This document shows, one piece after another, positions 22,709-31,279 of a stretch of 64,000 bases of DNA. The DNA is taken from the NCBI RefSeq assembly GCF_036231965.1, contig NZ_CP109499.1, positions 1,364,001 through 1,428,000 of the forward strand, written 5' to 3'. The position numbers and the translations under genes are program-made. The notes below the pieces were generated by a model. The model was not told the DNA's origin. It worked only from the letters and a program-made list of their open reading frames with translations, and did no database searches. This stretch comes from Streptomyces sp. NBC_01428 (GTDB lineage: Bacteria > Actinomycetota > Actinomycetes > Streptomycetales > Streptomycetaceae). Position 1 is the stretch's first letter. Each line of letters starts with the position of its first letter.

Positions 22709-24841
22709 ATGAAGCGGACCATTCGCACGACCGCGCTCACGGTCGGCGCGCTCATTGCCTCGCTCGGCTTACCCGCCGGCACGGCACACGCCGATCCGGT
22801 CGCACCCCGCATCGATCTGCGGGTGCTGATCGTGAGCGACGGCGGACCCGCGACCGACGCCATCGCCGCCGAACTGGACACCGCCGGAACGCCGTACACC
22901 GAGGTCGACCTGGCGCAGTCGGGCCGCCCGGTCATCGACGCCGGATTCCTCGCGGACACCGTCGCCGGCGTCCCGCGGGCCAGGTTCCAGGCGGTCGTCC
23001 TGCCCAACGACAACCCGTTCGCGGCGAACTCCGCCGAGATGGCGGCCCTCGCGGCGTACGAGCAGACGTTCGCGATCCCGCAGGTCGACGCCTACACCTA
23101 CGCCCGTCCCGAGGCCGGGCTCCAGTACCCGGTCACCGGCGGCTACTCGGGCAGCCTCGACGGAGTGCGCGCACAGGTCACGGCCGCCGGCAAGGCCGGG
23201 CCCTTCGGCTATCTGGACGGCGCCGTCCCGTTCGAGGACAACTCGCCCGACGTGGGCGAGAGTTACGCGTACCTGTCGGCGCCCGCGGCGGGGGCCGACT
23301 TCACGCCCTACGTCGACGCGCCGATCCCCGGAGGCTCCTCGCGCGGCTCCCTCGTGGGCGAGTACCGGCACGACGGCCGCCGCGAACTGGTCGTCACGTT
23401 CGTGTACAACCAGTACCAGCAGCAGTTCCGGCTGCTGGCGCGCGGCATCGTGGAGTGGATGACGCAGGGCGTGCACCTCGGCGCCTCGCGCAACTACTTC
23501 GCCGTCCACGTCGACGATGTCTTCGCCGGTGACGACCGCTGGGACACGACGCTCAACTGCACCCCGGGCGACATCGACTGCCCGCAGGGCGCAGGCGTGG
23601 CCAACCCGATCCGGATGACCCCGGCGGACGTCGACCACGCGGTCGCCTGGCAGACCGGACAGAACTTCACCCTCGACCTCGCGTACAACGGCGCGGGCAG
23701 TGTCGACCAGCGCGAGGACAACAACGGCGCCGACCCGCTGGCGGACAGGCTCATCGCCGACCGCGACCGGTTCCGCTGGATCAACCACACCTTCACGCAC
23801 GCGTTCCTCGGCTGCGAGCAGGACGTCAGCGTGCTGCCCTGGAGATGCGCCACCACCGCGGACGGCAGCACCTCATGGGTGTCGCGCACCGCCGTCTCCG
23901 ACGAGATCGCCGCCAACCGCTCCTGGGGACAGACCGCCGGACTGCCGCTGGACAACCAGGAGTTGATCACCGGTGAGCACTCCGGTCTGAAGCTCTCGCC
24001 GCAGCAGCCCGTCGACAACCCCAACCTGGCGCCGGCGCTCGCCGACAACGGCGTCACCTGGCTCGGCTCCGACAACTCCCGTGAGACCGGCCAGCGTCAG
24101 GTCGGCCCCGCCACCACCGTCCCGCGCTACCCGATGAACGTCTTCTACAACGCGGGCCGGGCGGCCGAGCAGGTCGACGAGTACAACTGGATCTACACCA
24201 GCCGCGCCCAGGGCGGCAGCGGCATCTGCGAGGACCACCCGGACACCTCGACGTGCCTGCCGGCGCCGCTGAGCACCAGCACGGGCTACGCCGACCACAT
24301 CGTGCCGCTGGAGACCCGGATCGACCTCGGCCACGTGCTCTCCAACGATCCGAAGCCGCACTTCATCCACCAGTCCAACCTCGCCGAGGAGCGCATCGCG
24401 TACCCGGTGCTCGACGGGGTCCTCGACGGCTACAAGGACCTGTTCGCGGACGACACCCCGGTGGTGAACCTGCGGATGAAGGACATCGGCGTCGAGCTGC
24501 GGCGCCGCGCCGTGTGGAAGGCGGCCGTGGCCTCCGGTCAGGTGAGCGCCTACCGCGTCGGCGACACCGTCACCGTGCAGGCGCCGAACGGCGTCGCGAT
24601 CACCGCCACCGCGCCCGCCGGCACCAGGTCGGGCGCCGCGGACTTCGGCACGGCGTACGCGGGCGCGGTCTCGGGATGGACGGCCTCGGCCGGCTCACCC
24701 GTCACGCTCGGCCTGCCGTCGGGCACGCCCGCGCTGTCCGCGGCCGTCCGCGCGAAGCGGCAGCCCGCGACCAGCGGCACCCCGCGCACCCGCGTACCGG
24801 CGGGCGTCAGCGAACAGGTCCCCTTCGCCCCGGACAACTGA
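22709..24841 (+). CDS. Agd3-like secreted polysaccharide deacetylase (CE18 type)
   Basis: 710-residue exported enzyme resembling Agd3, the deacetylase of fungal galactosaminogalactan. A signal peptide (cleavage near THA-DP, residue 29) is followed by an N-terminal module of about 230 residues and a catalytic deacetylase domain. Candidate metal ligands are the Asp pair 269-270 in HVDDVF and His360/His364 in HTFTH; TWLGSDNS and RYPMNVFYN follow, as in related proteins. It should remove N-acetyl groups from an amino-sugar polymer outside the cell. Leu21 is encoded by TTA (22769-22771), so translation should depend on the bldA tRNA. It heads the exopolysaccharide genes, but a hairpin (24860-24888) separates it from the rest. 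Confidence 0.82.
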   Translation: MKRTIRTTALTVGALIASLGLPAGTAHADPVAPRIDLRVLIVSDGGPATDAIAAELDTAGTPYTEVDLAQSGRPVIDAGFLADTVAGVPRARFQAVVLPNDNPFAANSAEMAALAAYEQTFAIPQVDAYTYARPEAGLQYPVTGGYSGSLDGVRAQVTAAGKAGPFGYLDGAVPFEDNSPDVGESYAYLSAPAAGADFTPYVDAPIPGGSSRGSLVGEYRHDGRRELVVTFVYNQYQQQFRLLARGIVEWMTQGVHLGASRNYFAVHVDDVFAGDDRWDTTLNCTPGDIDCPQGAGVANPIRMTPADVDHAVAWQTGQNFTLDLAYNGAGSVDQREDNNGADPLADRLIADRDRFRWINHTFTHAFLGCEQDVSVLPWRCATTADGSTSWVSRTAVSDEIAANRSWGQTAGLPLDNQELITGEHSGLKLSPQQPVDNPNLAPALADNGVTWLGSDNSRETGQRQVGPATTVPRYPMNVFYNAGRAAEQVDEYNWIYTSRAQGGSGICEDHPDTSTCLPAPLSTSTGYADHIVPLETRIDLGHVLSNDPKPHFIHQSNLAEERIAYPVLDGVLDGYKDLFADDTPVVNLRMKDIGVELRRRAVWKAAVASGQVSAYRVGDTVTVQAPNGVAITATAPAGTRSGAADFGTAYAGAVSGWTASAGSPVTLGLPSGTPALSAAVRAKRQPATSGTPRTRVPAGVSEQVPFAPDN

Positions 24842-24859
24842 GCGGCGCACCGACCGAAG

Positions 24860-24888
24860 GTCCCGGCCGCACCCTGGGCGGCCGGGAC
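24860..24888 (+). terminator. Intra-cluster hairpin after the deacetylase gene
   Basis: An 11-base perfect stem (24860-24870 with 24878-24888) with a seven-base loop in the 86-base gap before the glycosyltransferase gene. It may end or attenuate the deacetylase transcript. Confidence 0.65.
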
Positions 24889-24927
24889 GGGCACGACCAC
24901 CCCACACCTCGGCCGTGGAGCACACCG

Positions 24928-26466
24928 ATGCACGTTCCCCGCGGCGCGCGCGATCCCAACGCGACGCGCGTCACCCTGCTCACCGAAGGCACCTACCCGC
25001 ACAGTCACGGCGGCGTCAGCGTCTGGTGCGACCAACTCGTCGGCGGTATGCCCGACATCACGTTCGAGGTCGTCGCCGTGACCGGCACCGGCCGCGAGCC
25101 CGTCGTCTGGGACATCCCCGCACACGTGGCGGACGTCGTGGCGGTCCCCATGTGGGGGCCCGCACCCGACGGCCGTCCGCCCCGCGGCCGCCGCCGCAAT
25201 CAACTCGCCGCTGCCTACGAACAGTTCCTGACCTCCCTGCTCGACCCGTGTGCGGAGGAACGGTTCCCCGCGGCGTTGTACGCGATGGCGCGCGCCGCGG
25301 CGGACGGCATGCTGAGCCCCTTCCTGCGCGGCGACCACGCGATCCGCGTGCTGACCGGTGTGTGGAACCGTCCGGGCCTCGCCGTGCGGGAGGCCCGGCC
25401 GACCCTGCACGACGCCCTGACCGCGACCGCCCTGCTCGAACACGCGCTGCGCCCGCTGGCCGCGCCGCTGCCCGAGCACGGAGTGGCCCACGCGGTCAGC
25501 GGCGGCGTGGCCGCGCTGCCGGGCCTCGCCGCCCTCGAACAGCACGGCGTACCACTGCTGCTGACCGAGCACGGCGTCTACCTGCGCGAGCGCTATCTCG
25601 GCTACCGCACCGGGCCGTACCGCTGGCCGGTGAAGGCCGTCGTCCTCGGCTTCTTCCGGCTGCTCGCGGAGGAGACGTACCGGCGGGCCGCGCTGATCAC
25701 CCCCGGCAACCGGTACAACCGGCTGTGGGAGGAGCAGGGCGGTGCCGCGCCCGAGGCGATCCGGACGGTGTACAACGGCGTGGACCCCGCGGCCTTCCCG
25801 CCGGCGGGTCCGGAGCCGGAGCCACCGACCCTCAGCTGGGCCGGCCGGGTCGACCCGATCAAGGACCTGGAGACGCTGATCCGCGCGTTCGCCCTGGTCC
25901 GCGAGCAACTCCCGGACGCCCGGCTGCGGTTGTTCGGCGGCACACCGCGTGGGGGTGAGGCCTACCGGGAACGGTGCGAGGCGCTGGCCGCCCGACTCGG
26001 TCACGCGGACGCCGTCACCTTCGAGGGACGGGTCGAGGACATCAGGGACGCGTACGCCGCGGGCAACGTGGTGATGCTCTCCAGCATCAGCGAGGGCTTC
26101 CCGTTCACCCTGATCGAGGCCATGTCGTGCGGGCGGGCGACGGTGTCCACGGACGTGGGCGGGGTGCGCGAGGCCGTCGGCGACAGCGGTCTCGTCGTAC
26201 CGCCGCGGGATCCGGATGCCATGGCGGCCGCCGCCCTGGAACTGCTCGGCGACCCCGCCCGCCGGCGCGCCATGGGTGAGGCCGCCCGGCTGCGGGTCAT
26301 CGAGCAGTTCACGCTGCGTCAGACCGTCGACACCTTCCGGTCCATCTACCTGGAGCTGTCGGCCCTCGGCCGGTACGTCCCCGGTGTTCCCGGGACGGCC
26401 GGAGCCCCGCTCACCTCGGTGGGCGCCGAGGTGGTCCCGTCGAGACCGAGGAGCCTGGCCGGATGA
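24928..26466 (+). CDS. pelF: PelF-type glycosyltransferase (GT4)
   Basis: 512-residue cytosolic glycosyltransferase. The N-terminus (VTLLTEGTYPHSHGGVSVWCDQLV) is the hallmark of the PelF group, and the C-terminal GT-B half has the UDP-sugar site pattern SEGFPFTLIEAMSCGRATVSTDVGG with the EX7E pair, preceded by YNGVDP and a WAGRVDPIKDLETLI segment. PelF uses UDP-N-acetyl sugars to build the Pel polymer in Pseudomonas, and related GT4 enzymes do so in Bacillus. Here it is the likely polymerase. ATG at 24928 follows GTGGAG. Its stop overlaps the start of the next gene (ATGA), so it is coupled with the membrane protein. Confidence 0.88.
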   Translation: MHVPRGARDPNATRVTLLTEGTYPHSHGGVSVWCDQLVGGMPDITFEVVAVTGTGREPVVWDIPAHVADVVAVPMWGPAPDGRPPRGRRRNQLAAAYEQFLTSLLDPCAEERFPAALYAMARAAADGMLSPFLRGDHAIRVLTGVWNRPGLAVREARPTLHDALTATALLEHALRPLAAPLPEHGVAHAVSGGVAALPGLAALEQHGVPLLLTEHGVYLRERYLGYRTGPYRWPVKAVVLGFFRLLAEETYRRAALITPGNRYNRLWEEQGGAAPEAIRTVYNGVDPAAFPPAGPEPEPPTLSWAGRVDPIKDLETLIRAFALVREQLPDARLRLFGGTPRGGEAYRERCEALAARLGHADAVTFEGRVEDIRDAYAAGNVVMLSSISEGFPFTLIEAMSCGRATVSTDVGGVREAVGDSGLVVPPRDPDAMAAAALELLGDPARRRAMGEAARLRVIEQFTLRQTVDTFRSIYLELSALGRYVPGVPGTAGAPLTSVGAEVVPSRPRSLAG

Positions 26467-27833
26467 GCGGACCGATGGCCCTCGAACCCGGCGGCGCGCA
26501 GGACACCCTGTCCCTGCGGACCGCCGGTGACCGCCCCGCCCCGCGCGCGCCGGAGGGCGGCACCCGCCAGGACGCGGTCGACCTGCTCGCGGCCGAACTG
26601 GCCGACGGCATCGGGCCGGCCGTCCACCCGTACGAGGTGGCCGCTCTGCTGGAGTCGGAGGGACTGACCGCCGAGGTCATCCAGGAACGGTACGGACACC
26701 CGAACCTCTTCTCCCTCGCGTCCGCCCTGTACGAGCGCGTGCCGCGTACGTTCCCCGAGCCGGCCAGGCCCGCGAACCCCTGGCGACCCGATCATGTGCG
26801 CTGCGCGCTGCGCGGGGCGCTGTTCGCCCTGCCGGGCCTGGCCTATCCGCTCACCGGCCCGCTGTGGCACGCGGGCCGCGACCTCCGCGTCCTGGTGGTG
26901 GCCGGCCTGGTCTCCTGGGCCTGGGGCCAGGCACTCGGGCACCGCGCCTACCTGCGGATGACCACGGGCCGCCGCGAGGCCGGCCGCACCCTCCTCAAGG
27001 GGGCGCCGCTCGGCGCGCTCACCGCGACCGCGGCCGGATCACTGATCGCCGGATCCGGCACGGCGGTCGCGGTGGCGGCGGCGCAGTCCGTGTATCTCGC
27101 GGCGGCCGGGGTGCTGCTGGTACTGGGCGGGGAGCGGCTGCTGCTGGCCGCGCTGGGCCCGCTCGTCGGCGGCGCCCTCGCCCTGCCCTGGTGGGAACCG
27201 GGAGACACCCTGCGGCTCACGCTCCCGTTGCTGTCGGTGCTCGGCGCCGTCGCTGCGGCGGGCTGGGTGCTGCGCGCCGTCCTGGCCACCGCCCCGGCCC
27301 CCGGCGGCGCCCGCCCGGCGCTCCTGCGCTCCCTGCCGTACGGCCTGTTCGGACTCTCGGCCGGGATCCTGGTCCTGCTGGAGGGGCGGCAGCATCCGTA
27401 CGCCGTGATCGTGCTGACGGTCAGCATGGGTCCGGCGGAGTGGCTGCTGTACCGGTACCGCGGGATGTCGGTGGCGGCGTTGCGGGCGACCGCGACCCCG
27501 GCCGCCTTCCTGCTGCGCTCGGCGGGCGTCCTCGGGCTCTGTCTGCTCCTCTACGTCCTGCCGCTGCTGCCCGCCGCCCTGCTCACCGGAGCGGAACCGG
27601 CTCCGCTGCTGCTGCTCGCGGCCACGCTCTGGATCGCGCTGCTGCTCCAGGCCTTCGGGGTGGCCTGGCCGCCGGCCGCGGTCTGTCTCGCGGCGGCCGG
27701 CGGGGCCGCCGCGGCCGCGGTGCTCCGCTCCCCGCCGACCGCACTCGCGCTCTCCGTGTTCTGCGGCATGGCCGCCCTGTGTCTGACGGCCTGTGCCGTG
27801 CGGCTGCTGGGGCGGCCCGCCCCGCACGCCTGA
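26463..27833 (+). CDS. Polytopic membrane protein of the exopolysaccharide cluster
   Basis: 456-residue integral membrane protein, probably the membrane partner of the PelF-type enzyme. The first 110 residues are cytosolic and include a compact helical motif (YEVAALLESEGLTAEVIQERYG, then NLFSLASALYERVP). About ten to twelve hydrophobic segments follow from residue 115 to the end. Length and position match PelG, the twelve-segment Wzx-like transporter that pairs with PelF, but I do not see PelG sequence motifs, so the assignment rests on context. It could export the polymer or help its synthesis. The start overlaps the pelF stop by four bases. Confidence 0.75.
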   Translation: MSGPMALEPGGAQDTLSLRTAGDRPAPRAPEGGTRQDAVDLLAAELADGIGPAVHPYEVAALLESEGLTAEVIQERYGHPNLFSLASALYERVPRTFPEPARPANPWRPDHVRCALRGALFALPGLAYPLTGPLWHAGRDLRVLVVAGLVSWAWGQALGHRAYLRMTTGRREAGRTLLKGAPLGALTATAAGSLIAGSGTAVAVAAAQSVYLAAAGVLLVLGGERLLLAALGPLVGGALALPWWEPGDTLRLTLPLLSVLGAVAAAGWVLRAVLATAPAPGGARPALLRSLPYGLFGLSAGILVLLEGRQHPYAVIVLTVSMGPAEWLLYRYRGMSVAALRATATPAAFLLRSAGVLGLCLLLYVLPLLPAALLTGAEPAPLLLLAATLWIALLLQAFGVAWPPAAVCLAAAGGAAAAAVLRSPPTALALSVFCGMAALCLTACAVRLLGRPAPHA

Positions 27834-27839
27834 CCACCG

Positions 27840-27872
27840 CCCGCGGAACGCCCGGACCACCGCGTCCGCGGG
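27840..27872 (+). terminator. Weak hairpin in the gap before the legB-like gene
   Basis: CCCGCGGA (27840-27847) pairs with TCCGCGGG (27865-27872) around 17 bases, in the 102-base gap after the membrane protein gene. It could attenuate transcription. Confidence 0.35.
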
Positions 27873-27935
27873 ACCGCCGCACGCACCGGAAACACCTCCG
27901 CACCGCCCGAGCAACCGACCGGAAGGAACCACGAG

Positions 27936-28937
27936 TTGACCTCCGCACCGCTCGCCGCCGTCACCGGAGCCGAGGGTTTCATCGGCTCCCACCTCACCGA
28001 GGCGCTGGTCGCCTCCGGGCACCGGGTGAGGGCGATGGCCCAGTACAACTCCTTCTCCTCGTACGGCTGGCTGGAGACCCTGAGCGCCGACGTCCTGGAG
28101 CACGTCGAGATCGTCCTCGGCGACGTCCGCGACCCCGGCTCGGTCCGGGGGCTTGCCGAAGGCGCGGACTGCGTCTACCACCTGGCCGCGCTCATCGCGA
28201 TCCCGTACTCCTACCAGGCGCCGCACAGTTACGTGGACACCAACGTGACCGGCACCCTCAACGTGCTGGAGGCGGTGCGCGCCCTCGGCACGCCCCGGCT
28301 GGTGCACACCTCCACCAGCGAGACCTACGGCACCGCGCAGACCGTTCCGATCACCGAGGACCACCCCATCAACACGCAGTCCCCGTACGCCGCTTCGAAG
28401 GCGGGCGGGGACAGGCTCGCGGACAGCTACCACGCGAGTTTCGGCACACCGGTGGTCACCCTGCGGCCGTTCAACACCTTCGGCCCTCGTCAGTCCATGC
28501 GCGCGGTCATCCCGACCGTCATCGGCCAGGTGGCCGCGGGCGAACGCACCATCACCCTCGGCGACCTGCGTCCGACGCGCGACTTCACGTTCGTGCGGGA
28601 CACCGCGCAGGCGTTCCTCGCGGTGGGCACGGCGCCCGCCGAGCAGGTCGTCGGCCGCACCTTCAACGCCGGTACGGGCGGGGAGATCTCGGTCGGCGAC
28701 CTGGTCGCCCTGATCGGCAAGGTGATGGACACCGCCCTCGACGTGCGCGAGGACGCACAGCGCGTCCGGCCGCCGAACTCCGAGGTGATGCGTCTGGTCG
28801 CCGACGCGACCCGGCTCACCGCGGCGACCGGCTGGAGCCCGGCCCACCAGCTCGAACAGGGGCTCGCGCACACCGTGGAGTTCTTCCGCGACCCGGCGAA
28901 CCTCGCCCGCTACAAGACCGGCATCTACAACATCTGA
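27936..28937 (+). CDS. NAD-dependent sugar-nucleotide 4,6-dehydratase, LegB-like
   Basis: 333-residue extended short-chain dehydrogenase. The Rossmann motif is VTGAEGFIGSHL; the catalytic Tyr151-Lys155 pair lies in SPYAASKAGG, with TSTSETYG before it. Overall it follows LegB-type enzymes closely: YNSFSSYGWLE after the first strand, AALIAIPYSYQAP, and a C-terminal ENSEV-like NSEVMRL, ending in LARYKTGIYNI. LegB converts GDP- or UDP-N-acetylglucosamine to a 4-keto-6-deoxy sugar. The start is TTG at 27936, supported by GGAAGGA eight bases upstream and by the family N-terminus. It probably supplies a deoxy amino sugar for the polymer. Confidence 0.87.
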   Translation: MTSAPLAAVTGAEGFIGSHLTEALVASGHRVRAMAQYNSFSSYGWLETLSADVLEHVEIVLGDVRDPGSVRGLAEGADCVYHLAALIAIPYSYQAPHSYVDTNVTGTLNVLEAVRALGTPRLVHTSTSETYGTAQTVPITEDHPINTQSPYAASKAGGDRLADSYHASFGTPVVTLRPFNTFGPRQSMRAVIPTVIGQVAAGERTITLGDLRPTRDFTFVRDTAQAFLAVGTAPAEQVVGRTFNAGTGGEISVGDLVALIGKVMDTALDVREDAQRVRPPNSEVMRLVADATRLTAATGWSPAHQLEQGLAHTVEFFRDPANLARYKTGIYNI

Positions 28938-28969
28938 CCCGTCCGGCACGACCACGAAGGAGGAGCCCC

Positions 28970-29683
28970 ATGCACGCTGTGATTCTCGCAGGAGGCAAGG
29001 GCGTCCGGCTGCGGCCCTACACGACCGCGCTGCCCAAGCCGCTCGTGCCCATCGGCGACCAGCACGCGATCCTGGAGATCGTGCTCCGCCAGCTCGCCTC
29101 GGCCGGGTTCACCGGCTGCACCATCGCGATAGGCCATCTCGGGGAGATCATCCGCGCCTACGTCGGCGACGGCTCCCAGTGGGGTCTGGCCGTCGACTAC
29201 GCCACGGAGGAGAGCCCCCTCGGCACCATGGGGCCGCTGCTCACCATGCGGGAACGGCTCCCGGAGTCGTTCCTCGTGATGAACGGCGACGTGCTCACCG
29301 ATCTGGACTTCGCCGATGTCCTGGTCCAGCACCGGAGTTCGGGCGCGCCGCTGACCATCGCGACGTACGCGCGCAAGGTGCACATCGACTTCGGTGTGCT
29401 GACCACCGCCGACAGCAAGGTGGTGGCCTTCACGGAGAAGCCGAGCATGGACTACCGCGTCTCGATGGGTGTGTACGGTCTGTCCCGGTCCACGCTCGAC
29501 GGCTACACCCCGGGACTGCCGCTGGGCTTCGACGAGTTGGTCCTCGACCTGCTGCGGAGCCGGAACGAGCCGCACGCCTACGACTTCGAGGGGTACTGGC
29601 TCGACATCGGCCGCCCGGACGACTACGACCGGGCGAACGCCGAGTTCACCACCCGCAAGTCTCTGTTGCTCAAGGGAGCCTGA
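28970..29683 (+). CDS. Sugar-phosphate nucleotidyltransferase
   Basis: 237-residue NTP-transferase. The signature LAGGKGVRLRPYTTALPKPLVPIG is present at the N-terminus, followed by MNGDVLTDLDF with the metal-binding Asp and FTEKPSMDYRVSMGVYGLS for sugar binding; the C-terminus ends at YWLDIGRPDDYDRAN. It lacks the extra beta-helix of larger GlmU-like enzymes. The protein is similar to PtmE/LegF-type nucleotidyltransferases that make GDP-amino sugars, and it follows a LegB-like dehydratase as in those pathways. ATG at 28970 has GAAGGAGGAG upstream. Gap to next gene is seven bases, so they are cotranscribed. Confidence 0.87.
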   Translation: MHAVILAGGKGVRLRPYTTALPKPLVPIGDQHAILEIVLRQLASAGFTGCTIAIGHLGEIIRAYVGDGSQWGLAVDYATEESPLGTMGPLLTMRERLPESFLVMNGDVLTDLDFADVLVQHRSSGAPLTIATYARKVHIDFGVLTTADSKVVAFTEKPSMDYRVSMGVYGLSRSTLDGYTPGLPLGFDELVLDLLRSRNEPHAYDFEGYWLDIGRPDDYDRANAEFTTRKSLLLKGA

Positions 29684-29690
29684 CCGCCGT

Positions 29691-30620
29691 ATGCGCATTC
29701 TCGTCCTGGGCCACACCGGCTATCTGGGCGGCCATGTCGTCGAGCACCTGCGCGCCCTGCCGGGCGTGCGGGTGTTCGGCGGCGGCCGCTCGCCCGGCGC
29801 GGAGTTCGGCGTCGACCTCGCCACCGACGGCCGGGAGCGGCTGGCGGCGACGCTGGCCGAGGCCGCGCCCGACGCCGTGATCAACTGCGCCGGGGCCACC
29901 GGCGGTGACGCCGTAACCCTCGCCGAGGTCAACTCCCGTGGCCCGGCGGTACTTTGTGCGGCGCTGCGCGAAGCGGCGCCGGCCGCGCGGCTCGTCCACC
30001 TGGGCTCGGCGGCCGAGTACGGACCCGGCGTCCGCGGCAGCGCCGTCACCGAGTCGGCGGCGACCCACCCGCTCACCCCCTACGGGGCCACCAAGCTGGC
30101 CGGGACGGTCACCGTCAGCGTGTCCGGGCTGGACGCGGTCGTGCTGCGGGTGGGCAACCCGGTGGGACCCGGCGCACCCTCGGCCGGCCTTCCGGGCCGG
30201 ATCGCGGGGCTGTTGCGCGCGGCCGGGGCGGACCCGGACGCGGTGATCCGGCTGGGCGACCTGTCGGCGTACCGCGATTTCGTGGACGTACGCGACGTGG
30301 CGCGGGCGGCGGTGGCCGCGGCGAAGGCCCCGGGGCCGCTGCCCCGGATCCTCAACATCGGCGCGGGCAGGGCCGTTCCGGTGCGGGACCTGGTGGGCGG
30401 GCTGGCCCGCGCGTCCGGGTTCCGGGGACGGATCGAGGAGAAGGGCGCCGGCTCCGACCGCTCCGGCGCGGTGTCGTGGCAGTGCTCCGACATCACGGCC
30501 GCGGCTGAATCCCTGGGCTGGCGCCCCGCGTCGACCCTCGACGACTCGTTGACCGCGCTCTGGGCATCCGTGTCGGAGGCCGCCCGGGTCGGGCGGCCGG
30601 AAGGCGACCAGGTGCGATGA
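29691..30620 (+). CDS. NAD(P)-dependent sugar epimerase/reductase
   Basis: 309-residue extended short-chain dehydrogenase with GHTGYLGGHV as nucleotide-binding motif, HLGSAAEYGPG, and the catalytic Tyr-x3-Lys in LTPYGATKLAG. A YRDFVDVRDVARA motif, common in sugar-nucleotide reductases and epimerases, precedes the C-terminal substrate domain. The likely job is reduction or epimerisation of the 4-keto sugar made by the LegB-like dehydratase. ATG at 29691 sits seven bases after the nucleotidyltransferase stop with GGGAG nearby, and its own stop overlaps the next start (ATGA). The exact substrate is inferred from context only. Confidence 0.82.
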   Translation: MRILVLGHTGYLGGHVVEHLRALPGVRVFGGGRSPGAEFGVDLATDGRERLAATLAEAAPDAVINCAGATGGDAVTLAEVNSRGPAVLCAALREAAPAARLVHLGSAAEYGPGVRGSAVTESAATHPLTPYGATKLAGTVTVSVSGLDAVVLRVGNPVGPGAPSAGLPGRIAGLLRAAGADPDAVIRLGDLSAYRDFVDVRDVARAAVAAAKAPGPLPRILNIGAGRAVPVRDLVGGLARASGFRGRIEEKGAGSDRSGAVSWQCSDITAAAESLGWRPASTLDDSLTALWASVSEAARVGRPEGDQVR

Positions 30621-31279
30621 GCCTGCTGATCCCGCTGTATGTGCACCCGAGTGAGGACCCCGGCGCCTGGCACCGTCTCATCACGTCGGCCGACCGTACC
30701 TACGGTGTGGTCATCAACCCGGCGGACGGGCCGGGCGCGGGCCCCGATCCGGCGTTCACCGCGGCGACCGGCGCGCTCCGGGCGGCGGGCGCCCGGCTGC
30801 TCGGCTATGTCGACACGGACTACGGCGCGCGCGATCCGGACGAGATCGCGGACGAGGTGCTGCGCCACCGCGACTGGTACGGCACCCAGGGCTGCTTCCT
30901 CGACCGGGTGGCCTCGACCCCCGAAGCGTTGCCGGTCTTCAAGCGGCTGGTGCAGAGCGTCCGCCGGCTGGGCGCGGCGCCCCTGGTCCTGAACCCGGGC
31001 GTCCACCCCGCTCCGGGGTACGCCCGTCTCGCGGACCTGCTCGTCACGTTCGAGGGCCACTGGTCCACGTACGTCGCGGCGTTCAGCAGACCGGAGTGGA
31101 CCGCCCGGCACCCGTCCGAGCGGTTCTGCCATCTCGTCTACGGCGTCCCGGAGGCACTGGTCCCCCTCGCGGTACGCACCGCCCGCGACCGCGGAGCGGC
31201 GGTGACGGGCCCGGTGACAGGCGAACTCCCCAACCCGTGGTCCCGACTGACGCCGGCCTTGAGTACACCGGAGTCCTGA
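30617..31279 (+). CDS. Spherulin-4/Sph3-type protein (GH135-like)
   Basis: 220-residue TIM-barrel protein of the spherulation-specific family 4. This family includes Sph3, a glycosidase in the fungal galactosaminogalactan cluster. Family features: LLIPLYVHP at the start, GVVINPADGPG, LGYVDTDYG, CFLDRV with Asp96, LNPGVHP and a late LVTFEG with Glu146. Asp96 and Glu146 are candidate catalytic residues by position. No signal peptide or membrane anchor is visible, unlike fungal Sph3, so it may act in the cytosol or be exported by another route. Coupled to the upstream gene by ATGA overlap; last gene of the cluster. Confidence 0.83.
   Translation: MSLLIPLYVHPSEDPGAWHRLITSADRTYGVVINPADGPGAGPDPAFTAATGALRAAGARLLGYVDTDYGARDPDEIADEVLRHRDWYGTQGCFLDRVASTPEALPVFKRLVQSVRRLGAAPLVLNPGVHPAPGYARLADLLVTFEGHWSTYVAAFSRPEWTARHPSERFCHLVYGVPEALVPLAVRTARDRGAAVTGPVTGELPNPWSRLTPALSTPES

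Follow-up and report, generated by a model that had tools for sequence, protein, structure and literature searches.

A conserved Streptomyces gene cluster with Agd3-like, PelF and spherulin-4 proteins and a candidate 6-deoxy amino-sugar module

The analysed window is a 64,000-nucleotide stretch of the Streptomyces sp. NBC_01428 genome (contig NZ_CP109499.1, positions 1,364,001 to 1,428,000, forward strand). Seven consecutive plus-strand genes at positions 22709-31279 of the window encode, in order, an Agd3-like protein, a PelF glycosyltransferase, a membrane protein, a LegB-like dehydratase, a nucleotidyltransferase, a short-chain dehydrogenase/reductase (SDR) and a spherulin-4 protein. An earlier note had read them as one pathway joining fungal galactosaminogalactan (GAG)-type genes with bacterial Pel-type genes. 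The gene order and positions it gave hold, and the overlaps it described, between pelF and the membrane-protein gene and between the SDR and spherulin-4 genes, are both real start/stop overlaps of 4 bases. The features of the locus are as follows (aa, amino acids; NDP, nucleoside diphosphate; HexNAc, N-acetylhexosamine).

22709..24841, plus strand: Agd3-like (CE18-type) polysaccharide N-deacetylase, 710 aa, likely signal peptide (Agd3_CE match at 1.5e-6, BLASTP chain, catalytic residues)
22769..22771, plus strand: TTA codon 21 of agd3, in the signal-peptide part, a candidate bldA control point (TTA counts in named loci)
24928..26466, plus strand: PelF, GT4-family glycosyltransferase, 512 aa, predicted polymerase (NCBIfam PelF, DUF3492)
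26463..27833, plus strand: polytopic membrane protein, 456 aa, with an N-terminal helical motif and a MOP-type transmembrane domain, predicted export partner of PelF (AlphaFold2 model, fold match, overlap with pelF)
27936..28937, plus strand: LegB-like NDP-HexNAc 4,6-dehydratase, 333 aa, TTG start (TIGR04180, TSTSETYG and YAASK motifs, linkage to agd3)
28970..29683, plus strand: sugar-1-phosphate nucleotidyltransferase, 237 aa, nearest to guanylyltransferases (NTP_transferase match at 1.1e-37, NCBIfam, fused to the SDR in locus L180)
29691..30620, plus strand: extended SDR, 309 aa, predicted 4-keto reductase (RmlD/RMD-like), C4-epimerase possible (Epimerase 1.1e-37, RmlD_sub_bind 2.7e-13, Gly-Arg pair)
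30617..31279, plus strand: spherulin-4/GH135-related protein, 220 aa, no signal peptide seen, Asp96 and Glu146 kept (PF12138, Sph3 structure 5c5g, alignment)

Because the successive intergenic distances are 86, -4, 102, 32, 7 and -4 bases, the spacing is compatible with one or two transcription units. Below, mem and sph denote the membrane-protein and spherulin-4 genes, and the trio comprises the nucleotidyltransferase (NTase), the LegB-like dehydratase and the SDR. Loci with the trio are called A-type, and agd3-pelF-mem loci without it type B. A search of named genomes with an Agd3 alignment headed by the window protein gave 438 matches; the best 80, all titled Streptomyces, form the named loci, a sample that leans to close relatives. 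Synteny, linkage and TTA counts are raw, with kinship among genomes ignored. Signal peptides were assessed by a crude rule (a hydrophobic stretch plus Lys/Arg near the start), a rough guide rather than a dedicated predictor.

The Agd3_CE profile matched the window Agd3 only marginally, at 27.9 bits against a cut-off of 27.6. BLASTP connected the protein with one encoded by locus L182 of another actinobacterium (E = 1e-30), which scores above the cut-off in both Agd3 models and in turn matched the solved Agd3 structure 6nwz (E = 8.7e-13) with the DD and HTF(T/S)H (HxxxH) motifs aligned. Through this chain of matches the marginal profile result becomes a firm prediction of an Agd3-like protein. 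When the window protein or alignment A2 was searched directly against solved structures, Agd3 was not retrieved, and the best weak match was heparan sulfate N-deacetylase (E = 0.5). The catalytic Asp-Asp and HxxxH, aligned with 6nwz via the L182 protein, are present in the window Agd3, and D269-D270 (motif CM1), H360/H364 (HxxxH, CM2) and H551/H554 are identical in all 39 aligned close homologues. A profile search found no CBM87 domain in the window protein at E 0.01; among relatives, the domain was matched in L182 (2.3e-14) and, under the cut-off, in L179. The AlphaFold2 model built from the 39 close homologues was poor (predicted local distance difference test score, pLDDT, 50). A signal peptide, also visible by eye, was indicated by the crude rule in 75 of 75 agd3 proteins of the named loci. 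Three lone agd3 copies were aligned as well: two (L035 and L038) have the catalytic Asp-Asp replaced and HxxxH broken, and L039 retains both; the solitary L035 and L038 proteins are possibly binding proteins or decaying copies.

The PelF assignment of the glycosyltransferase is secure at the level of profiles (178.8 bits with the NCBIfam PelF equivalog against a cut-off of 100; DUF3492, 1.6e-62), and the crude rule indicated a signal peptide in 0/73 PelF proteins of the named loci. The neighbouring membrane protein had no Pfam match even with the E threshold at 10, nor an NCBIfam match at 0.001. Its AlphaFold2 model, built from 51 homologues, reached a pLDDT of 83.6 and resembled the MATE transporter 9r10_A (Z 20.5 over 331 residues, root-mean-square deviation 4.2), the lipid III flippase WzxE (Z 15.8) and MurJ (Z 14.6). 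In this fold comparison, 49 of the 50 rows listed were named MATE, MOP, WzxE or MurJ, the other (5c6n) being named only "protein A", and the first 36 Foldseek rows all belonged to the MOP superfamily. Within residues 1-100, the helical motif was traceable in 8/8 rows of an alignment spanning six kinds of locus. PelG itself was considered and rejected as an identity: PF16933 gave no match to the protein, and the one PelG-profile match in this genome lies elsewhere and scores 25 bits, below the cut-off of 29. By its modelled fold the protein looks like a MOP-type exporter standing at the position that PelG takes in Pel, distinct from PelG by sequence. The idea of a Pel-type gene set thus stands for PelF; for PelG it fails by sequence, and the resemblance of the partner to MOP proteins is one of predicted fold only.

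The LegB-like dehydratase carries the TSTSETYG and YAASK motifs and matched TIGR04180 at 7.1e-135 and 448.8 bits, just under the curated cut-off of 475. This score fits the proposed likeness to LegB without reaching the cut-off; LegB of the legionaminic-type locus L197 scored lower still (433 bits). L197 has, in this order, a CBS-nucleotidyltransferase, LegB and a LegC-type aminotransferase, and the window has the SDR at the place of LegC. No LegC aminotransferase, NeuB-type synthase or CMP (cytidine monophosphate) transferase was found among the genes called at 22709-31279. Since the aminotransferase is missing and an SDR occupies its place, reduction of the 4-keto group is more likely than amination and would give NDP-6-deoxy-HexNAc. 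The best NCBIfam model for the NTase, mannose-1-phosphate guanylyltransferase, scored 134.9 bits, far below its cut-off of 440, and no CBS domain was found in the protein. The first half of the SDR is RmlD-like and the second GalE-like by NCBIfam. GalE itself was not found in the window cluster, the GalE scores of its two SDR-family proteins (140.6 and 61.4 bits) both lying below the cut-off of 262.3. At the end of the second beta strand, the SDR and its aligned homologues have Gly-Arg (9/9), the fused enzyme of L180 has Thr-Arg and the GalE of L179 has Asp. Such a strand end favours NADPH and hence a reductase, so a reductase role is favoured on account of the Gly-Arg pair.

The spherulin-4 assignment is likewise secure by profile (PF12138, 1.8e-33) and by comparison with the solved Aspergillus Sph3, 5c5g (E = 1.3e-12). 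In the alignment, D96 and E146 correspond to the 5c5g Asp/Glu pair, and the two positions are kept in 11/11 and 10/11 aligned proteins, respectively. Counted by hand, the spacing of the pair in the 5c5g alignment is 56 residues, which fits Asp166, presumably the catalytic Asp of Sph3. The pair is printed as Asp196/Glu222 in PMC12054363. The residue after the catalytic Asp is Arg in 49 and Gln in 16 of the 66 named-locus spherulin-4 proteins (one could not be assigned) and Glu in Sph3. A dead enzyme was considered and rejected, the Asp/Glu pair being kept; the second spherulin-4 of L179 has Gly after the catalytic Asp. The window protein is probably cytosolic: with the domain starting at residue 3, no space is left ahead of it for a signal peptide, and the gene's start codon overlaps the SDR stop codon. 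The crude rule indicated a signal peptide in 0/66 spherulin-4 proteins, and it misses L179:6707-7528, which looks secreted by eye. The domain and the Asp/Glu pair bear out the Sph3-like glycosidase proposed earlier; a secreted or membrane-anchored protein is not supported.

Most relatives carry one more gene. A gene of the GH114 family (that of Ega3) follows spherulin-4 within at most 333 bases in 48/66 complete named loci, and GH114 was matched in 21 of the 28 A-type and 10 of the 18 type B loci fetched. The 18 named loci without it there include the nearest relatives of the window (L087, L088 and L090), and in two of the 18 (L093 and L146) about 1 kb of contig remains. With GH114, an A-type cluster usually has eight genes, and the window is a minority form: no GH114 gene was found in its cluster, an M1 peptidase-domain gene lies directly 3' at the GH114 position of most relatives, and the single GH114 of this genome, about 137 kb downstream, is 34% identical to the cluster type. 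The idea that a missing GH114 is a hallmark of trio-bearing clusters was overturned by these counts. GH114 enzymes act on galactosamine polymers, and their presence in relatives favours a galacto-configured amino sugar, galactosamine (GalN) or fucosamine (FucN).

The full gene order was found in 66/66 uncut named loci (66 of 80 overall); of the others, 13 are truncated at most 300 bases from the end of a contig, and L098 stops 331 bases past the SDR. Because every uncut locus keeps the order, chance does not account for it. A protein search found agd3 in 77/150 genomes of the Streptomycetaceae. With legB orthologues defined within the family as at least 69% identical (paralogues reach at most 54%), 61 were found in 60/150 genomes; agd3 is present in 60/60 of these genomes, and 57/61 orthologues lie within 8 kb of it, against 0/19 legB paralogues. 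Of the remaining four, one lies at a contig split (G063, L074) and three in clusters without agd3 (L071-L073). These results agree with the earlier claim of one pathway with conserved linkage. In L071, L072 and L073 the trio is retained beside pelF and agd3 has been lost, with a 55-residue remnant in L073 and another agd3 elsewhere in each genome; sharing of agd3 in trans was considered for these three cases and, given their number, not used as evidence. Forty loci were chosen and mapped in the family: 28 A-type, 7 type B, 3 lone agd3, 1 divergent agd3 and L032. All seven genes are present in 26 of the 28 A-type loci (L056 and L065 have no spherulin-4 match), and sph is present in 6 of the 7 type B loci. 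In the wider sample, legB orthologues of at least 65% identity occur in 19/394 genomes of the class, the next best match being 58%; 17 of the 19 were mapped with the cluster; for G133 a contig end cuts the sequence off, and in G504 mem adjoins legB.

Related loci show the assembly genes with other sugar genes. This genome has three PelF genes: that of the window cluster, that of type B locus L031 (agd3-pelF-mem-sph, no trio) and that of L032:4202-9632 (C1:3476201-3481631), a pelF-mem-SDR-sph locus without agd3, LegB and NTase. The L032 PelF, used as a query, gave matches in 133/150 family genomes at 1e-60, other PelF types included. In a PelF tree made by a quick method, with SH-aLRT (Shimodaira–Hasegawa-like approximate likelihood ratio test) support only and four long branches flagged, the A-type rows except L040 formed one group with the three agd3-losers (support 96). 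Type B fell into two groups beside it, and a D-type group (99) had A-type L040 within it (96).

Outside the family, Agd3 was found in 5 sampled genomes of the class (18/296 in all), two of the five matches being partial; the same five genomes carry the membrane protein (42/394 sampled in all). One of these outside loci, L179, has GalE at 337 bits (cut-off 262) and no trio. L179:224-10156 holds Agd3, two spherulin-4 genes (one secreted-looking by eye), GalE, PelF, mem and GH114, a near-complete fungal GAG set. In none of the 28 A-type and 18 type B loci is GalE the best match at any place, and in this single GalE locus GalE stands at the place of the NTase-LegB-SDR module, with the assembly genes unchanged. 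L180, from another actinobacterial family, has the same gene set as the window (LegB 65%), with agd3 last, at the other end, and GH114 on both sides. In this small-genome actinobacterium, L180:11805-13550 (minus strand) is an NTase-SDR fusion in one open frame of 581 residues. GH114 is present in L178, where none of the sugar genes tested was matched, and L181 is a 5-kb contig with GH114.

As far as is known, UUA is decoded in Streptomyces solely by the bldA tRNA. A TTA codon lies within the first 40 codons of 26/75 agd3 genes in the named loci versus 2/90 signal-peptide-like background genes. Anywhere in the gene, TTA occurs in 14/675 background genes, and 30/66 complete clusters have at least one TTA-bearing gene. 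The agd3 TTA positions vary by species (13 at codon 5, 6 at codon 21, as in the window), so these codons look to have been gained several times. Their over-representation suggests repeated acquisition of bldA control over agd3.

With confidence barely above even, we read the cluster as a Pel/GAG-like exopolysaccharide locus of the synthase type that carries its own 6-deoxy amino-sugar supply. In the proposed pathway, the NTase would activate an amino-sugar phosphate, probably as a GDP (guanosine diphosphate) sugar, and the LegB-like enzyme would convert NDP-N-acetylglucosamine (GlcNAc) to a 4-keto-6-deoxy sugar. For LegB of C. jejuni, the substrate given in the accessible part of PMC7439481 is GDP-GlcNAc. 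The SDR would then reduce C4 to give NDP-6-deoxy-HexNAc, and N-acetylfucosamine (FucNAc, galacto) is favoured over N-acetylquinovosamine (QuiNAc) because a GH114 galactosaminidase is linked to most relatives. Polymerisation of this sugar by PelF would take place in the cytosol and, as in Pel, form alpha linkages; the MOP-fold partner would take the chain from PelF and move it through the membrane. Once the chain is outside, the Agd3-like enzyme would strip part of its N-acetyl groups to leave a cationic polymer; the cytosolic spherulin-4 probably trims or clears chains at the synthase. By analogy, the product would be an alpha-linked 6-deoxy-HexNAc polymer made cationic via Agd3, and a partly deacetylated polymer, as the earlier note had suggested, is the best reading. 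A single sugar in alpha linkage is proposed because Pel, a homopolymer of partly deacetylated alpha-1,4-N-acetylgalactosamine (GalNAc), comes from a locus with one glycosyltransferase (PMC9135694, as far as its accessible text goes).

A fuller version is put forward tentatively, with confidence clearly short of even. It envisages a hitherto undescribed polymer of 6-deoxy-HexNAc in alpha linkage, partly N-deacetylated (poly-FucNAc/FucN, a "6-deoxy Pel/GAG"), which PelF and a MOP-fold partner other than PelG would make using a GDP-linked precursor. Translation of agd3 would be developmentally timed by the signal-peptide TTA codons, and each cell would have two Agd3-PelF systems making two chemically different cationic polymers.

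Several points weigh against a 6-deoxy amino-sugar polymer. The sugar, nucleotide, linkage, deacetylation and all enzyme activities are predictions from sequence and models. The best Foldseek E for the membrane-protein model was 3.8e-3, with none under 0.001, and in reference locus L197 the LegB, LegC and NeuB matches all lie under their curated cut-offs. GH114 fits ordinary galactosamine as well as it fits FucN, and its presence in most relatives lowered the weight of both the 6-deoxy reading and the poly-FucNAc/FucN version. The best solved-structure match of the SDR is an epimerase/dehydratase-family protein, 6wjb, which we take to be the UDP-GlcNAc C4-epimerase PelX (UDP, uridine diphosphate). 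An SDR homologue of 41-45% identity occurs in pelF-mem-SDR loci without LegB or NTase (L032 and L190-L193; sph called in 4/5), and the loci with such homologues include genomes without a legB match at 1e-90 (e.g., G009 and G095). Because of these LegB-free loci, the SDR may have a role other than reducing the LegB product. In L182, an NTase and an SDR are accompanied by an NDP-sugar dehydrogenase and a further SDR instead of LegB. A dedicated module for a 6-deoxy amino sugar is plausible, but the sugar itself is our inference, with the SDR homologues of LegB-free loci and GH114 pulling the other way.

The strongest alternative, which we consider unlikely, is an ordinary Pel/GAG-like poly-GalNAc/GalN: PelF would act on UDP-GalNAc, the SDR would be a PelX-like C4-epimerase, and LegB and NTase would serve a side sugar, an end cap or nothing. 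The frequency of GH114 after spherulin-4 in both A-type and type B loci speaks for it, as do the epimerase/dehydratase-family match of the SDR and the SDR homologues found without LegB. So does Pel of P. protegens, for which PelX provides UDP-GalNAc (PMC9135694, accessible text). However, LegB, NTase and SDR are all present in 66/66 uncut named loci, the three agd3-less legB clusters still adjoin pelF, and NTase and SDR are fused in L180. Moreover, the SDR has Gly-Arg rather than Asp at the end of the second strand, unlike the L179 GalE, and a single glycosyltransferase in the cluster argues for one main sugar.

Improbable in our judgement is a heteropolymer or cell-wall-linked glycan in which 6-deoxy-HexNAc alternates with a common sugar, PelF being promiscuous and Agd3 editing one of the two sugars. 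Since the two further PelF loci of this genome lack LegB and NTase, related PelFs probably accept common sugars, which lends this reading some support; the cluster has only one glycosyltransferase, and no additional gene for a lipid-carrier transferase or ligase was called within 22709-31279. It is very improbable that the seven genes stand together merely through history and belong to different glycans: members of the set do occur apart (lone agd3 in L035, L038, L039 and L082; pelF-mem-SDR-sph in L032), but synteny in every uncut locus, the 57/61 linkage, two 4-base overlaps and recurrence in another family (L180) stand against it, as do the damaged catalytic motifs of two of the lone copies (L035 and L038, not L039).

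The 6-deoxy amino-sugar reading can be set beside known systems. Bacterial agd3 operons were reported in 2020, so the combination of genes, for which the earlier note knew of no characterised Streptomyces example, is not new: the accessible text of PMC7229062 (Bamford et al. 2020) counts 45 bacterial species with Agd3 homologues and describes operons that also encode a glycosyltransferase and a membrane protein, with spherulin-4 in some actinobacterial ones and GH114 highly consistent. The linkage of agd3, glycosyltransferase, membrane protein, spherulin-4 and GH114 is therefore already known. The same text favours bacteria-to-fungi transfer, and the label "fungal-type genes" may have the direction reversed. 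The window cluster shares spherulin-4 with some of those operons, and GH114, consistent there, is present in 48/66 named relatives here; unlike them, the window has no GH114 in place, and a LegB-NTase-reductase module is not mentioned for those operons in that text. Neither the accessible text of PMC7229062 (figures and supplements aside) nor the matches listed in a literature search that left subscription literature largely uncovered showed the NTase-LegB-SDR module, an exchange of it with GalE, a fused NTase-SDR enzyme or a MOP fold of the membrane partner. Among those listed matches, no paper on a Streptomyces cluster with the module was found. What is new is the linked NTase-LegB-SDR module, the predicted supplier of NDP-6-deoxy-HexNAc.

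Like the fungal GAG cluster, the window has an Agd3-type deacetylase, spherulin-4/GH135 and one glycosyltransferase, and most relatives have GH114. It differs in having no 4-epimerase above the GalE cut-off, no Ega3-type GH114, a spherulin-4 without a signal peptide and a dedicated 6-deoxy sugar module. A GAG-type gene set is therefore present as far as Agd3- and Sph3-like proteins go, but a GalE-type epimerase and GH114 are absent from the window cluster. The Gram-positive Pel locus is pelDEADAFG in the accessible text of PMC7112168. The window shares with it a PelF over the curated cut-off and a multi-spanning partner encoded alongside, but the partner gives no PelG match and the Agd3-like protein is the sole deacetylase of the seven genes. 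Because PelG is not matched by sequence, the cluster is not filed as a Pel locus. A search for the PelD c-di-GMP (cyclic diguanylate) receptor gave no match in this genome, nor in any control genome. As in the CMP-legionaminic acid pathway, the LegB-like dehydratase adjoins a sugar nucleotidyltransferase; unlike that pathway, the cluster has no LegC, NeuB or CMP transferase and has an SDR instead, and its NTase has no CBS domain.

Cationic polymers of the Pel/GAG type bind bacterial and mould biofilms together, and to our knowledge those characterised are galactosamine-based. If the 6-deoxy reading is true, the cluster would make a new chemical version of the surface polymers related to Aspergillus GAG and Pseudomonas Pel, perhaps with its own 6-deoxy amino sugar, and polymer chemistry could change, from UDP-GalNAc supply to a 6-deoxy amino-sugar module, with the assembly line staying in place. 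The cluster, widespread in Streptomyces, is a candidate for hyphal adhesion and pellet formation in industrial streptomycetes, and it offers a deacetylase and glycosidases for a polymer that current dispersal enzymes may not cut.

A Pfam scan of ten open frames around the cluster gave nothing that points to polysaccharide synthesis. Eight frames matched a SpoIIE-type phosphatase, an amine oxidase, a MarR regulator, a zinc dehydrogenase, a VWA/CoxE protein, an AAA protein, a luciferase-like protein and the M1 peptidase-domain protein; two were matchless.

Relatives of the sugar-supply genes also occur in other settings. In L198:6612-8651, an NTase and a LegB-like dehydratase lie inside a cell-division/murein cluster, between MurG-like and MurC-like genes (named by eye), and in L183-L188 a LegB paralogue adjoins a gene that is MurG-like by eye. 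The NDP-sugar dehydrogenase cluster of L182:9068-19264 suggests a uronic-acid version of the polymer.

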